DNA of 37,689 nucleotides from Verrucomicrobiota bacterium. Lineage in GTDB: Bacteria; Verrucomicrobiota; Verrucomicrobiia; Chthoniobacterales; UBA10450. The first letter of the stretch is position 1. Every line of letters starts with the position of its first letter. This document shows positions 13,602 to 31,724 of the stretch, piece after piece. Position numbers and translations under genes: made by a program. A model generated the notes under the pieces. The model saw nothing but the letters and a program-made list of their open reading frames with translations. It did no database searches and had not been told where the DNA came from. The stretch lies in contig QHNJ01000160.1 of NCBI GenBank assembly GCA_003218395.1, positions 1-37,689 on the forward strand, given 5' to 3'.

Positions 13602-15398
13602 TCATTGCGCCTTTAACACCTCGATAAACGCTTCCTGGGGAATGTTGATCTTCCCGATGCTCTTCATCCGTTTCTTTCCCTCTTTTTGCTTCTCAAGCAG
13701 TTTCCGCTTGCGCGTGATATCGCCGCCGTAGCATTTCGCGGTTACGTTTTTTCGCAATGCCGAAACACTCTCGCGCGCAATAATTTTCCCGCTAATGGCG
13801 GCCTGAATTGCCACCTGGTAAAGCTGTCGCGGGATTACTTCCTTCAATTTGGCTGCTAGCTGACGTCCCCTCGCCTCCGCGCGGTCTTTGTGCACGATCG
13901 TCGAAAACGCATCGACCGGCTCGCCATTTACGAGCAGGTCGAGTTTTACCAGTTTCGCCTGGCGATAACCGGCATGCTCGTAATCCATCGAGCCGTAGCC
14001 GCGCGTAATGCTTTTAATCTTGTCATTAAAATCGACGAGAATTTCGTTCAGTGGCAGTGCGCAATGCAACATCACACGACGCGTATCGAGGGACTCCGTA
14101 TGTTCCATCTGGCCGCGCTTCTCGAGAATTAATTGCAGGATATCACCGATGTTTTCATTCGGACAAAGCACGTACGCCCTTACAACCGGCTCTCGAATTT
14201 CCTGGATCATGCTCGGATTCGGCAAGTGCGCGGGGTTATCGATCAAGAGTTTTCCCCCGCGCGTGGTCAACACTTCATAGACGACGCTCGGACTCGTCGC
14301 GATGATGTCCATGTTGTATTCGCGCCGGAGCCGTTCCTGGATGATTTCCATGTGAAGCAAACCCAGAAATCCGCAGCGAAATCCGAATCCGAGCGCGACG
14401 GAGCTTTCCGGTTGATAGACGAACGCAGCGTCGTTCAAGCGCAGTTTTCCGATGGCTACTTTCAAATGTTCGAAGTCGCCGGTGTTAATCGGATAAATCC
14501 CGCTGAATACCATCGGATGAATTTCCTGAAAACCTGGCAGCGGCTCACTCGCCGGATGACGCTGGTCCGTGATGGTGTCGCCGATCTTTATGTCGGCAGT
14601 CGTCTTGATGTTCGCGATGAAATAACCGACGTCCCCGGGATTTAGCTTCGGCCGTACGAGCATCTTCGGCGTAAACACGCCCACCTCCTTGATCTCGTAG
14701 CGCGCGTTGTTGTTCATCAATGTAATCGCGTGGTTCGCTTCCATTGTTCCGGAAACCACGCGCACGTAACCCACCACGCCGCGATAAACGTCAAATACGG
14801 AATCAAAAACCAGAGCGCGCAAAGTTTCATCCGCCGGTTTTTGCGGCGGCGGAATTCGCTTCACAATTGCCTCAAGAATTTCCTCAATACCGATCCCCGC
14901 CTTCGCGCTCGCCTCGATCGCTTCCTCCGAAGGGATTGCGAGGATTTCTTCCAGTTGTCGATGGACCGAGGCCACATCGGCGTTTGGCAGATCGATCTTG
15001 TTGATGATCGGGACTATCGTAAGCCCCTGTTTGTGTGCGAGATGAACGTTGGCCACCGTTTGCGCTTCAACGCCTTGCGCGGCGTCGACTACCAACAGCG
15101 AGCCTTCGCATGCGGCGAGACTACGCGAAACTTCATAGGCAAAATCGACATGCCCTGGGGTATCGAGCAGGTTCAGTTGATAAGTTTCGCCCGACTTGCT
15201 GGTGTAACGCATTGTCACCGGATGCGCTTTGATCGTGATGCCTCGCTCCCGCTCCAAGTCCATTGAGTCGAGAAGCTGGTCCTGCTTCTCTCGCTCGTGG
15301 ATCGTGCCCGTGCACTCGAGCAATCGATCGGACAAAGTCGTCTTGCCGTGATCGATGTGCGCGATGATGCAAAAATTCCGCGTCAACTCAATCGCCAT
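13602..15398 (-). CDS. lepA: Elongation factor 4 (LepA), back-translocating GTPase
   Basis: The 598-residue, full-length protein has GTPase motifs AHIDHGKTTL (P-loop), RGITIKAH (G2), DTPGHVDF (G3) and NKIDLPNA (G4). It also has the EF4-specific C-terminal domain, including VNGEPVDAFSTIVHKDRA and LKKNVTAKCYGGDITRKRKL-like sequence (here LRKNVTAKCYGGD and ITRKRKLLEKQKEGKK). LepA binds the ribosome and aids translation fidelity or initiation under stress. It starts the lepA-lepB-membrane protein-synthase run. The 230-bp region upstream, divergent to the FHA gene, carries two interspersed repeats and must hold the promoters. Confidence 0.97.
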   Translation of the reverse strand: MAIELTRNFCIIAHIDHGKTTLSDRLLECTGTIHEREKQDQLLDSMDLERERGITIKAHPVTMRYTSKSGETYQLNLLDTPGHVDFAYEVSRSLAACEGSLLVVDAAQGVEAQTVANVHLAHKQGLTIVPIINKIDLPNADVASVHRQLEEILAIPSEEAIEASAKAGIGIEEILEAIVKRIPPPQKPADETLRALVFDSVFDVYRGVVGYVRVVSGTMEANHAITLMNNNARYEIKEVGVFTPKMLVRPKLNPGDVGYFIANIKTTADIKIGDTITDQRHPASEPLPGFQEIHPMVFSGIYPINTGDFEHLKVAIGKLRLNDAAFVYQPESSVALGFGFRCGFLGLLHMEIIQERLRREYNMDIIATSPSVVYEVLTTRGGKLLIDNPAHLPNPSMIQEIREPVVRAYVLCPNENIGDILQLILEKRGQMEHTESLDTRRVMLHCALPLNEILVDFNDKIKSITRGYGSMDYEHAGYRQAKLVKLDLLVNGEPVDAFSTIVHKDRAEARGRQLAAKLKEVIPRQLYQVAIQAAISGKIIARESVSALRKNVTAKCYGGDITRKRKLLEKQKEGKKRMKSIGKINIPQEAFIEVLKAQ

Positions 15399-29136: not shown

Positions 29137-29191
29137 AGGTAGGGGCGATTGATCTCAATCGCCCAGGCGGTTCGGTGAACCGCCCCTACCT
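29137..29191. repeat. Palindromic element P7 (55 bp, two-stem) between sdhB and ispE
   Basis: The ends AGGTAGGGGCG (29137-29147) and CGCCCCTACCT (29181-29191) are a perfect 11-bp inverted repeat. Inside are two perfect hairpins: GGGCGATTG-atct-CAATCGCCC and GGCGGTTC-ggt-GAACCGCC. The ends and layout are the same as in P8, which is embedded in lplA. It lies between convergent genes. Confidence 0.85.
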
Positions 29192-29196
29192 GAGCA

Positions 29197-30027
29197 TCAC
29201 ATCGTTTCGCAAGCATAGGTCCACAATTCTGGGTCGAGCTGATCCCTCGCACGCATGGCGAGAAGGTCGATATCTACATTTGGACGCAGCACAGCAAACA
29301 CTGTTGAACCGGAACCGGACATCAGGGCTGCGACTACTTCAGGCTGGTCCAGCAACCACATTTTGAGTCGGGCAAGAAAAACAAATTTCTGGAAAACCGG
29401 ACGCTCGAGATCGTTCACGAAAGTTTGGCCGGCGAATTCCTGAGTCGCGTAATACACGCCCGGGATTTCGCGCGAATCCTGCCAACGTGAGTACGCCCAC
29501 TCTGTTGACACACGAAAATCTGGTTTTAAGAGCAAAATCGATAATGGACGTTCCAAATTTATCGGAGTGACCAAGTCGCCGCGTCCTTTACAGATCGCGG
29601 CTGATTCGAAGATGAAGAGAGGAATGTCCGATCCAATTGTCGATCCAAGCTTGGCCAATTCATCACGCGTCAACTTCGTTTCAAAAATTTGATTGAGCGC
29701 GAGGAGCGTCGAAGCGGCGTCGCTGCTTCCTCCGCCCAGACCCGCACCATGCGGAATTTTCTTTTTGAGCTCGATTGAAACACCGTTCTTCAGTTTTGTT
29801 TCTTCGAAAAGAGCCTTCGTCGCGCGAACGACGAGATTGTCATCGCCGGTCGGAACCGAGGGATCATCACAGCGAAACTCGATCCTTTCCCTATCGCTCT
29901 TGTGGACTTCAATCTCGTCGCAAAGCGTAATTGGCGCGATAAGCGTCTCGATTTCGTGAAAGCCGTCGTCACGCCGACCTAAGATTTTCAGCGAAGGATT
30001 GATCTTCGCGGGAGAGAGGACTTGCAT
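29197..30027 (-). CDS. ispE: 4-diphosphocytidyl-2-C-methyl-D-erythritol kinase IspE
   Basis: The 276-residue GHMP kinase begins MQVLSPAKINPSLKILGRRD. It has the ATP-binding loop IPHGAGLGGGSSDAASTL, the GSDIPLF motif and the C-terminal ALMSGSGSTVFAVL. It phosphorylates CDP-methylerythritol in the MEP isoprenoid pathway, in the cytoplasm. I chose ATG 30027 at the conserved start; a TTG at 30048 would add seven residues. It is divergent from pyrF and shares with it a promoter region that is largely occupied by repeat P10. Confidence 0.94.
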   Translation of the reverse strand: MQVLSPAKINPSLKILGRRDDGFHEIETLIAPITLCDEIEVHKSDRERIEFRCDDPSVPTGDDNLVVRATKALFEETKLKNGVSIELKKKIPHGAGLGGGSSDAASTLLALNQIFETKLTRDELAKLGSTIGSDIPLFIFESAAICKGRGDLVTPINLERPLSILLLKPDFRVSTEWAYSRWQDSREIPGVYYATQEFAGQTFVNDLERPVFQKFVFLARLKMWLLDQPEVVAALMSGSGSTVFAVLRPNVDIDLLAMRARDQLDPELWTYACETM

Positions 30028-30086
30028 CCCTTGCAATTTGTCCAGCAAAACCGAAAGAGAACAGGATGAAATCGTTTGTTAAAAGG

Positions 30087-30187
30087 GGCACAGCCATCTT
30101 GGCTGCGGGGCCGACGGGCATCTTGCCTGTCGAATCAAAGACGGCAGGCGAGACGCCCGCCTGCCCCACAGGCTGGAAGCCTGTGCC
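30087..30187. repeat. Multi-hairpin element P10 between ispE and pyrF
   Basis: The outer arms are GGCACAG (30087-30093) and CTGTGCC (30181-30187). Between them are four successive hairpins: CAGCC-atctt-GGCTG, GACGGGC-atctt-GCCTGTC (one mismatch), GGCAGGC...GCCTGCC, and ACAGGCT-gga-AGCCTGT. On the minus strand it can be translated as GTGFQPVGQAGVSPAVFD, a phrase seen in spurious proteins of repeat-rich genomes. It ends six bases before the pyrF ATG. Confidence 0.85.
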
Positions 30188-30193
30188 ACGATA

Positions 30194-30894: not shown

Positions 30895-31662
30895 GTGTCG
30901 ATTACGCCGCCATCGCGAACAGCAGTCCCGCAGCAGCGCGAGACTTCGCTCGAAACAAGAAGAGGGCTCTTCGCTGCCCTCGATATTTATTCGGATAACG
31001 CGCCGCGCTCGGCAGCGATGAACATGGCGGTCGATGAAGCTTTGCTCGAAACAGCCAGGGCTGTGTCGATTCGTTTCTATCGATGGCAGTCCCCTGCTCT
31101 GTCGTTTGGATATTTTGGAAGATTCGCCGATGTCGCTCATTATGCATTGCAGCGCGATTTGGTCCGGCGATGGACGGGCGGCGGAATCGTTTTTCACGGT
31201 GAAGATCTCACTTATTCGATTATTATTCCGGCAACTGAACCGGCCTTCGGCGAATCGCCGAAGTCGATCTACGAAAAAATTCACTGCGCTCTGCGCGATG
31301 CTTTGACTGCGAATGACGCACGCGTGGAATTGGCAGCGATGGGTAGGGACGCCGCGCTACGGCGTCCGCGGACAGCGCAGCGCGCTGTCCCTACCAATGT
31401 ATGTTTCGCTAATCCTGTGTCGGCAGATGTAATGGTGAATGGCCAAAAAGTTGCCGGCGCGGCCCAGCGCCGCACGCGCAGCGGTTTGCTGCATCAGGGC
31501 AGCATTCAGCATGTCGATCTTGGGAATGGTTTCGCGGAACGATTTGCAAAAGAGTTGTCGAACAATTGCGAGACGGGGGCTTTGCCAGAGGCAGTTCACG
31601 ATCGGGCGCAGGAAATCGCAGCGGAAAAGTACGCAACCAATGCGTGGTTGCGTAAGCGCTAA
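30895..31662 (+). CDS. Lipoate-protein ligase A family protein with an in-frame palindromic insertion
   Basis: The 255-residue protein belongs to the BPL/LplA/LipB fold family. It has NMAVDEALLE, the adenylate-binding VRRWTGGGIVFHGEDLTYSI and the conserved-lysine segment NGQKVAGAAQRRTRSGLLHQ and GSI. Such proteins attach lipoate or octanoate to E2/H proteins, or transfer a related acyl group; the exact reaction is not certain. Between Met149 and Asn168, the 18 residues GRDAALRRPRTAQRAVPT are encoded by a 54-bp palindromic element, exactly codon-aligned. It sits in the linker before the CFANP motif, where family members vary in length, so activity may persist. The start is GTG, eight bases after pyrF. 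Confidence 0.88.
   Translation: MSITPPSRTAVPQQRETSLETRRGLFAALDIYSDNAPRSAAMNMAVDEALLETARAVSIRFYRWQSPALSFGYFGRFADVAHYALQRDLVRRWTGGGIVFHGEDLTYSIIIPATEPAFGESPKSIYEKIHCALRDALTANDARVELAAMGRDAALRRPRTAQRAVPTNVCFANPVSADVMVNGQKVAGAAQRRTRSGLLHQGSIQHVDLGNGFAERFAKELSNNCETGALPEAVHDRAQEIAAEKYATNAWLRKR
31342..31395. repeat. Palindromic element P8 (54 bp) inside the lplA-like coding sequence
   Basis: The ends GGTAGGGAC (31342-31350) and GTCCCTACC (31387-31395) are perfect inverted repeats. Two inner hairpins are GGACGCCG-cgcta-CGGCGTCC and GGACAGCGC-agc-GCGCTGTCC. The length is a multiple of three and the element is in codon register, encoding 18 residues without a stop. It is an architectural twin of the intergenic P7. 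Confidence 0.9.
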
Positions 31663-31666
31663 CAAC

Positions 31667-31724
31667 TGTAGGGCGGCTGTATCAGGCGCTGTCTCCTTTC
31701 GGCGCTTCGCAGAAACGCCCTACA
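31667..31724. repeat. Palindromic element P9 after the lplA-like gene
   Basis: The ends TGTAGGGCG (31667-31675) and CGCCCTACA (31716-31724) are a perfect 9-bp inverted repeat. An imperfect inner stem GGCGCTT...AAACGCC is visible near the right side. It starts five bases after the TAA of the lplA-like gene and precedes the promoter of the polyprenyl synthase gene. Confidence 0.75.

Follow-up and report, generated by a model that had tools for sequence, protein, structure and literature searches.

Repeats of the GTAG class known as REPs consist of the tetranucleotide GTAG beside a short stem-loop, and two inverted REPs that form one hairpin unit are called a REPIN. As far as the available text of two studies goes (PMC3116915, PMC3733652), these elements recur in genomes as head-to-head dimers, together with a REP-associated tyrosine transposase (RAYT) that has the same elements on its flanks. 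For other species, it has been published that RAYT cleaves single-stranded REPs tagged with GTAG (PMC8266576, in the portion consulted). GTAG REPs and their dimers also lie inside open reading frames: in the excerpts of PMC3733652, their number is highest in the verrucomicrobium Opitutus terrae, dimers or groups make up more than half of the in-gene inserts and encode 20-30 residues, and many in-gene REPs fall in replication and repair genes. The same excerpts give one case of different REPs at about one site, in recB of two Xanthomonas species. Palindromic repeats that sit in frame within conserved genes are known as well from Rickettsia, under the name of Rickettsia palindromic elements (RPEs), and a Rickettsia guanylate kinase with an RPE insert is translated and active, according to the consulted parts of PMC2229807 and PMC3733652. 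In-frame palindromic inserts are thus an established phenomenon in Rickettsia and in REP-rich genomes.

We describe such an insert in a stretch of 37,689 nucleotides, called here the window. On its plus strand, the open reading frame 30895..31662 is a lipoate/octanoate ligase-like gene (Pfam LplA-B_cat, residues 40-204), and at 31342..31395 this gene carries a REPIN of 54 bp, a head-to-head pair of GTAG REPs that reads in frame as GRDAALRRPRTAQRAVPT, residues 150-167. A first-pass annotation had described a codon-aligned palindrome with perfect inverted ends and two perfect inner hairpins at this place, exactly as a second reading of the sequence finds it. The outer inverted ends GGTAGGGAC and GTCCCTACC, 9 nt long and perfect, close the whole unit. 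Within it, two inverted REP halves are linked by GC, each of them GTAG followed by a perfect hairpin: the first REP (31343..31367, plus strand) has the hairpin GGACGCCG-CGCTA-CGGCGTCC, with an 8-bp stem and a 5-nt loop, and the second, inverted one (31370..31394, minus strand), the hairpin GGACAGCGC-GCT-GCGCTGTCC, with a 9-bp stem and a 3-nt loop. This layout matches the definition of a REPIN.

Folded as single-stranded DNA, the element reaches -23.4 kcal/mol, with a z-score of -4.86, and none of 200 dinucleotide shuffles is as stable; it is also the longest among the six inverted-repeat pairs of the window at the settings used. A pattern for the half-element, with up to two mismatches, matches the window exactly twice, at the two arms of the element, and finds nothing in 100 shuffles. 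A generic scan for GTAG hairpins has more background, with nine in the window against 0-5 in ten mononucleotide shuffles, and the window contains no match to a curated RNA family of Rfam. That the length is a multiple of three, as the annotation had pointed out, is true of the window copy, whose GTAG-to-CTAC span is 52 nt (54 with the outer G and C), and fails as a trait of the family: 39 of 61 dimers with both ends exact have a span of 50 nt (52 with the outer G and C). The base that precedes GTAG is a G in 94% of 180 ends.

The window belongs to the genome of an uncultured soil bacterium, assembled as 2.95 Mb in 335 contigs and 87.8% complete. One REP arm, with at most three mismatches, is present at 11 places of this genome, the window's included, and the reversed pattern at none; a looser arm pattern is found at 23 places versus 5 in the control. 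Complete GTAGGGNC..GNCCCTAC elements number 13, against 0 in the control, and sorting them by eye assigns nine to the family of the window REPIN and four to a GTAGGGGC family. Arm matches with at most one mismatch occur in 13 of 15 sampled genomes of the genus (0-25 per genome, 176 in total, reversed control 0). The search for further copies, which the annotation had proposed, is therefore positive in both the genome and its relatives. This low copy number of 0-25 arm matches per genome, and the sizeable minority of in-frame copies reported below, set the family apart from the GTAG REPs and REPINs described in the available text of PMC3116915 and PMC3733652, which it resembles in its GTAG and short hairpin, its head-to-head dimers, its repetition in the genome and a RAYT flanked by the same elements.

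The probable cognate transposase of the REPIN family is a RAYT, of the HUH/Y1 type. On contig C154 of the window's own genome, a REPIN stands 5 bp ahead of a decayed RAYT gene that begins MKLPTRRRLPHRVPLWVDPSKAHYFITIS; the same gene start lies 5 bp from a REPIN in relative G013, where the contig ends within the gene. In G004, two REPINs of the window family enclose an intact RAYT gene, whose stop codon is the TAG of the downstream GTAG; in G014, a RAYT gene is followed by a downstream REPIN, the upstream side being masked. The G004 protein passes the NCBIfam model NF047646 for REP-associated tyrosine transposases with 104.6 bits, for a cut-off of 80, and matches the TnpArep structure PDB 4er8 with an E-value of 2.7e-11; its translation contains DHVHL, the HUH motif, and DYILANP, with the tyrosine. 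Its score against Pfam Y1_Tnp, 19.8 bits, is under the cut-off of 23. The IS200-type genes that match PF01797 were also considered as the source of the transposase: they are present in 50 of 58 genomes, including the window's own, where they occupy eight places, and no REP of the window family was close by at the 22 loci examined (20 from the search and two from the own genome). This line led nowhere, and the RAYT was found through the REPs instead.

The annotation had taken the Rickettsia elements as its precedent, and they hold good as a model of insertion. As a class they do not fit: because the window element is tied to a RAYT transposase, it is of RAYT type, a GTAG REP dimer. In the consulted parts of PMC2229807 and PMC3733652, RPEs resemble it as palindromic repeats in frame within conserved genes, and differ in being 105-146 bp long, in being found in Rickettsia and in having no known transposase, whereas the window element has 54 bp, GTAG ends, a link to RAYT and a verrucomicrobial host. 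Moreover, the same portion of PMC3733652 identifies RPE-4 and RPE-6 as repeats of the CGTC type, which had no transposase in that study, and not of the GTAG type. Membership among the RPEs is thus rejected on length, ends and RAYT link. The annotation also knew of no coding element in this kind of bacterium; the coding GTAG REPs that PMC3733652 reports in its available text, most of them in Opitutus terrae, overturn that remark. Like the in-gene REPs of Opitutus terrae and others in that text, those described here occur in frame, in the same phylum, and with DnaE2 among their targets. Neither a RAYT-linked REPIN in frame within a gene nor its occurrence in this phylum is thus new.

The host protein matches the LplA-B catalytic domain PF21948 (E-value 7.5e-19) and, among solved lipoate ligases, its profile matches 2ars, 8cri and 1x2g; all its NCBIfam matches are far under their cut-offs. 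The insert lies in the linker directly before the conserved CFANP segment, and the junction peptide of the window protein is AVPTNVCFANPVSADVMVNGQK. In an AlphaFold model built with 38 sequences, the mean pLDDT is 90 and falls to 54 in block 151-160 and 70 in block 161-170, the remaining blocks from residue 21 onward being at 83 or more and the first 20 residues low too; the low values at the insert are consistent with a predicted flexible loop. Three residues past the insert stands Cys170 (codon 31402..31404, plus strand), invariant in the 38-sequence alignment; in some octanoyltransferases, a cysteine at such a position is catalytic. Owing to this proximity, the insert may not be neutral. 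In G002, G009 and G004 (L027, L038, L048), the lipoate-ligase-like protein has a further insertion, 11-13 residues long, that follows GSIQ.

Homologues give the size of the gain. From ELA, or its equivalent, up to CF, the linker of the window protein measures 22 residues, while in each of eight near homologues, namely L083-L089 and that of Chthoniobacter flavus (L092), it measures 10. With insert-free near homologues at 10 residues, the net gain is about 12 residues and not 18, so that the alignment proposed by the annotation, in which exactly 18 residues were to be missing, gives a different answer, and an exact 18-residue insertion is rejected. Longer linkers, unrelated to this one, are found in a number of distant homologues, such as L116, L123 and L127. 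Of 80 loci found, those of relatives with named records come from Verrucomicrobia of soil (the AV series) and from Candidatus Udaeobacter. Among the 46 homologues that were aligned, the 18-residue insert was seen by eye only in L075 (AV49), which is the decayed copy of G002. This copy and the one in the LplA-like protein of G007 both belong to the genus of the window genome; unrelated genomes carrying the same 18 residues, which would have spoken against an insertion, did not turn up in these comparisons.

How often does the family sit in genes? In the window's own genome, four of the 13 complete elements are in frame within genes: the LplA-like gene, a cyclase-TPR gene, a PMT-like transferase and a DnaE2-type polymerase. 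On a wider scale, a codon-usage classifier was applied to 125 element sites, of which 17 come from the own genome (the window and 20 fetched stretches) and 108 from 11 relatives. These sites were drawn from the listed matches, leaving aside the 15 of G011, part of those of G014, and six places (G009:C150, G013:C1, G004:C21, G004:C41, G014:C81 and G014:C194). At least 19 of the 125 lie in frame inside an open reading frame, a lower bound because the classifier misses the known DnaE2 case of the own genome; of 721 random positions taken from these loci, 448 do. These 19 are divided into three in the own genome and 16 in relatives, two further sites being too close to the end of a contig; of the 19 calls, at least those in MutL (L299) and in a halogenase-like frame (L294) are probably 5' of the true start.

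The in-frame share is under that of random positions, and yet in-frame copies are present: the family appears depleted in genes but regularly tolerated there. According to Pfam, inserts fall within matches to the LeuRS editing domain (L255), a halogenase-like domain (L327) and a laccase-like domain (L333); in RNase R, LigD, Lhr and other proteins, they are located between domains or at the side of one. A less sensitive classifier, which missed the window's own element, gave nine sites with both flanks coding-like on one strand and not in one frame; on rough inspection, one of the nine, L270, is a REPIN beside a RAYT gene, and none was established as a gene broken by out-of-frame insertion. The in-frame count that the annotation had called for is thus available, and its central proposal, a repeated palindromic element inserted in frame, agrees with the further copies, with the near homologues that have no insert and with the in-frame copies in other genes.

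We then read the corresponding loop across relatives in six genes, chosen for the presence of the window family in at least one genome and not for loop reuse. The assignment of families and loop states was made by eye and is difficult for decayed inserts. Exact-end patterns could be read in 28 of 29 LplA loops, 13 of 13 DnaE2, 20 of 20 RNase R, 20 of 22 LeuRS, 18 of 23 PMT and 13 of 17 Lhr. In the LplA-like loop, the GGTAGGG type is found in G000 and G007 and, decayed, in G002 and G010, and most other genomes have GTAGCC or GTAGCCGC types, or remains, where G008 and G012 were set as GTAGCC family despite decay; the loop holds two elements in G021 (L029) and is shortened in G001. Exact GTAG..CTAC pairs occur in 18 of the 28 LplA loops and in none of 560 control stretches of the same genes.

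The DnaE2 loop, in 13 genomes, has GTAGGGAC in G000 and, decayed, in G001, GTAGCCGGGATC in G004 and G009, and GTAGCGGCGTTT in G006 and G010, the seven remaining genomes having other elements with GGGGAGC or GGTAGCGC ends; six of the 13 loops have exact pairs, against 0 of 244 controls, and in one of the six (L196) the GTAG concerned is not part of the element. In RNase R, the loop is empty in seven of 19 typed genomes (G000, G002-G005, G007, G009) and filled or decayed in the other 12, with at least three families, several of which share one junction and codon phase; in G013, RNase R is found on two contigs whose inserts differ. Exact pairs are present in 5 of 20 RNase R loops (control 0 of 400). 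Of 20 typed genomes, 12 have no such insert in the LeuRS loop, G008 has one that is decayed, and seven, among them the own genome with a GTAGCCGG type, have inserts that represent two families or more. The insert of G007 looks like a hybrid, its left end resembling a decayed GTAGCC element and its right end being CCCTACC. Only two of the 20 LeuRS loops read have exact pairs (control 0 of 400).

Among 18 typed PMT-like loops, seven have GTAGGG types, five a GTAGCCACGGC type, some decayed (G005, G010, G021, G022, G001), four are empty and two unclear; exact pairs occur in 8 of 18, versus 10 of 360 control stretches, so the test has background here. It has background in Lhr as well, with 2 of 13 against 2 of 250, where the window family is present in G007 and G010 and no such insert in the 11 others typed. 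Counting LplA, DnaE2, RNase R, LeuRS and PMT, five of the six genes thus show more than one family. In other genera of the same taxonomic family, the DnaE2 loop of G098, G151 and G066 holds unrelated palindromes without GTAG ends; in G151 and G066 (L453, L457), it is a long inverted repeat read as HPERSE.., at the place of the genus's REPIN. In more distant lineages, several DnaE2 loops are short and two are long, of no clear origin. This survey covered 21 loci, of which two were unread and five clipped by the pattern.

What is new here is that different REPIN families repeatedly occupy the same coding loops within one genus. In the available text of PMC3733652, apart from recB, genes of one functional category are hit at different sites; here, different families share the same loop, in five genes of one genus, followed on trees. 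Searches of the open-licence PMC literature for in-frame or intragenic REPINs, and for repeats of Udaeobacter or Verrucomicrobia, gave no report of such loop reuse across a genus.

A careful lplA tree, computed without the loop on 27 rows (excluding L052, L053 and L054), requires four changes of the window family, all forced by the starred branches, with a bootstrap range of 4-4. Among the starred branches are three sister pairs with unlike families, whose lplA DNA outside the loop is 92.1% (G010/G032), 85.3% (G002/G009) and 78.8% (G007/G008) identical. In three sister pairs with unlike inserts, the lplA flanks are under purifying selection, with dN/dS of about 0.18, 0.27 and 0.17. Constraining G000, G002 and G007 to a single clade is rejected (p-AU 1.5e-4), as it is when G010 is added (4.5e-65). 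Since G000, G002 and G007 share the order of their inner arms, their copies may go back to an old insertion that was overwritten in their sisters. On a concatenated tree of five genes without loops, made with a quick method on 36 rows after eight of 44 genomes were dropped for too little data, the hand-typed states require 7 changes for LplA, 7 for DnaE2, 8 for RNase R, 7 for LeuRS, 8 for PMT and 2 for Lhr, counted over 21, 13, 19, 20, 18 and 13 typable genomes respectively, RNase R being taken without G018. Some forks of the gene trees conflict with the concatenated tree, for example in the place of G000.

We consider it highly probable that a REPIN of the GTAG class, of a family with a RAYT as its transposase, landed in the lplA linker, and that such selfish insertions are tolerated in flexible loops, with turnover. 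The REPIN would be non-autonomous, moved by the RAYT, and would have come down just ahead of the CFANP segment. Since the insert reads through without a stop codon, the gene stays open, and the insert would be translated as an added flexible loop with a presumably near-neutral effect on the enzyme. A few loops in conserved genes would be hit repeatedly by different families, older inserts being eroded, deleted or overwritten, a turnover made of new insertions and deletions. In these genomes, which are fragmented, no species showed a filled/empty pair, and neither transposition nor excision was seen.

An unlikely alternative is directed exchange, in which the RAYT would cut a resident REPIN at the shared GTAG/CTAC ends and swap another in, the coding loop acting as a docking site. 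Independent insertion does not predict that several RNase R families share one junction and phase, nor the hybrid-looking LeuRS insert of G007, and these keep the idea alive; none of the genus's lplA loops, moreover, looks clearly empty by eye, and the shortest, that of G001, has an end resembling the right half of the insert found in its relative G023. However, junction and codon phase vary by family in two genes, lplA and DnaE2, and the DnaE2 loop of other genera is also occupied by palindromes without GTAG ends, which is why we favour tolerance and turnover. Were docking true, single-strand mobile elements would keep rewriting short segments of the LeuRS editing domain, RNase R, DnaE2 and lipoate ligase.

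The inserts might also be kept because the extra loop, or an mRNA hairpin, benefits the cell. The presence of inserts or insert remains in most of the lplA loops read, and in 13 of 13 DnaE2 loops, would suit this idea, as would the many in-gene REPs in replication and repair genes noted in the consulted part of PMC3733652; but the inserted family differs between species, two lplA copies of the window family (G002, G010) are decayed and the loop has low predicted order, and we regard such domestication as very improbable. About as little weight can be given to the transfer of whole alleles between species, or to chimaeric bins, as the source of the loop differences in lieu of replacement in place: the genomes are fragmented, G013 has its two RNase R contigs, and some forks disagree, such as that of G000, yet flanks as similar as those of the three starred pairs accompany unlike families, and a single clade of the window family's lplA rows is rejected. 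A chance palindrome in ordinary coding sequence has a practically negligible probability and is rejected on the repeated copies, with none in the reversed controls, on the shuffles, with the fold at z -4.86, and on its absence from the insert-free near homologues.

With tolerance and turnover as the preferred reading, some protein loops look like parking places reused by such DNA, because related species carry unrelated palindromes in the same loop. Different REPIN families in the same enzyme loops across one genus amount to many natural replicates, and this genus could be used to learn which loops of a protein accommodate selfish DNA, at what rate REPINs are turned over, and whether a RAYT places its element next to a resident REP, within it or in its stead. 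They also call for caution: a variable protein linker may be the scar of a mobile element and not an adaptation.

The window has other palindromes. A second REPIN, of GTAGGGGC type, at 29137-29191 (complete element 29139-29189), adjoins the end of an ispE-like frame (29197-30048, minus strand), and a third, imperfect GTAG..CTAC palindrome at 31668-31723 starts 6 nt past the host gene's stop codon. A palindromic element at 30085-30190, which separates the ispE-like gene from the pyrF-like one, has GGCACAGCC/..TGTGCC ends, and its minus strand reads GTGFQPVGQAGVSPA..TGKMPV in a probably spurious frame. Finally, an inverted repeat at 13928-13983 has 25-nt arms, 72% complementary and spaced by 6 nt.
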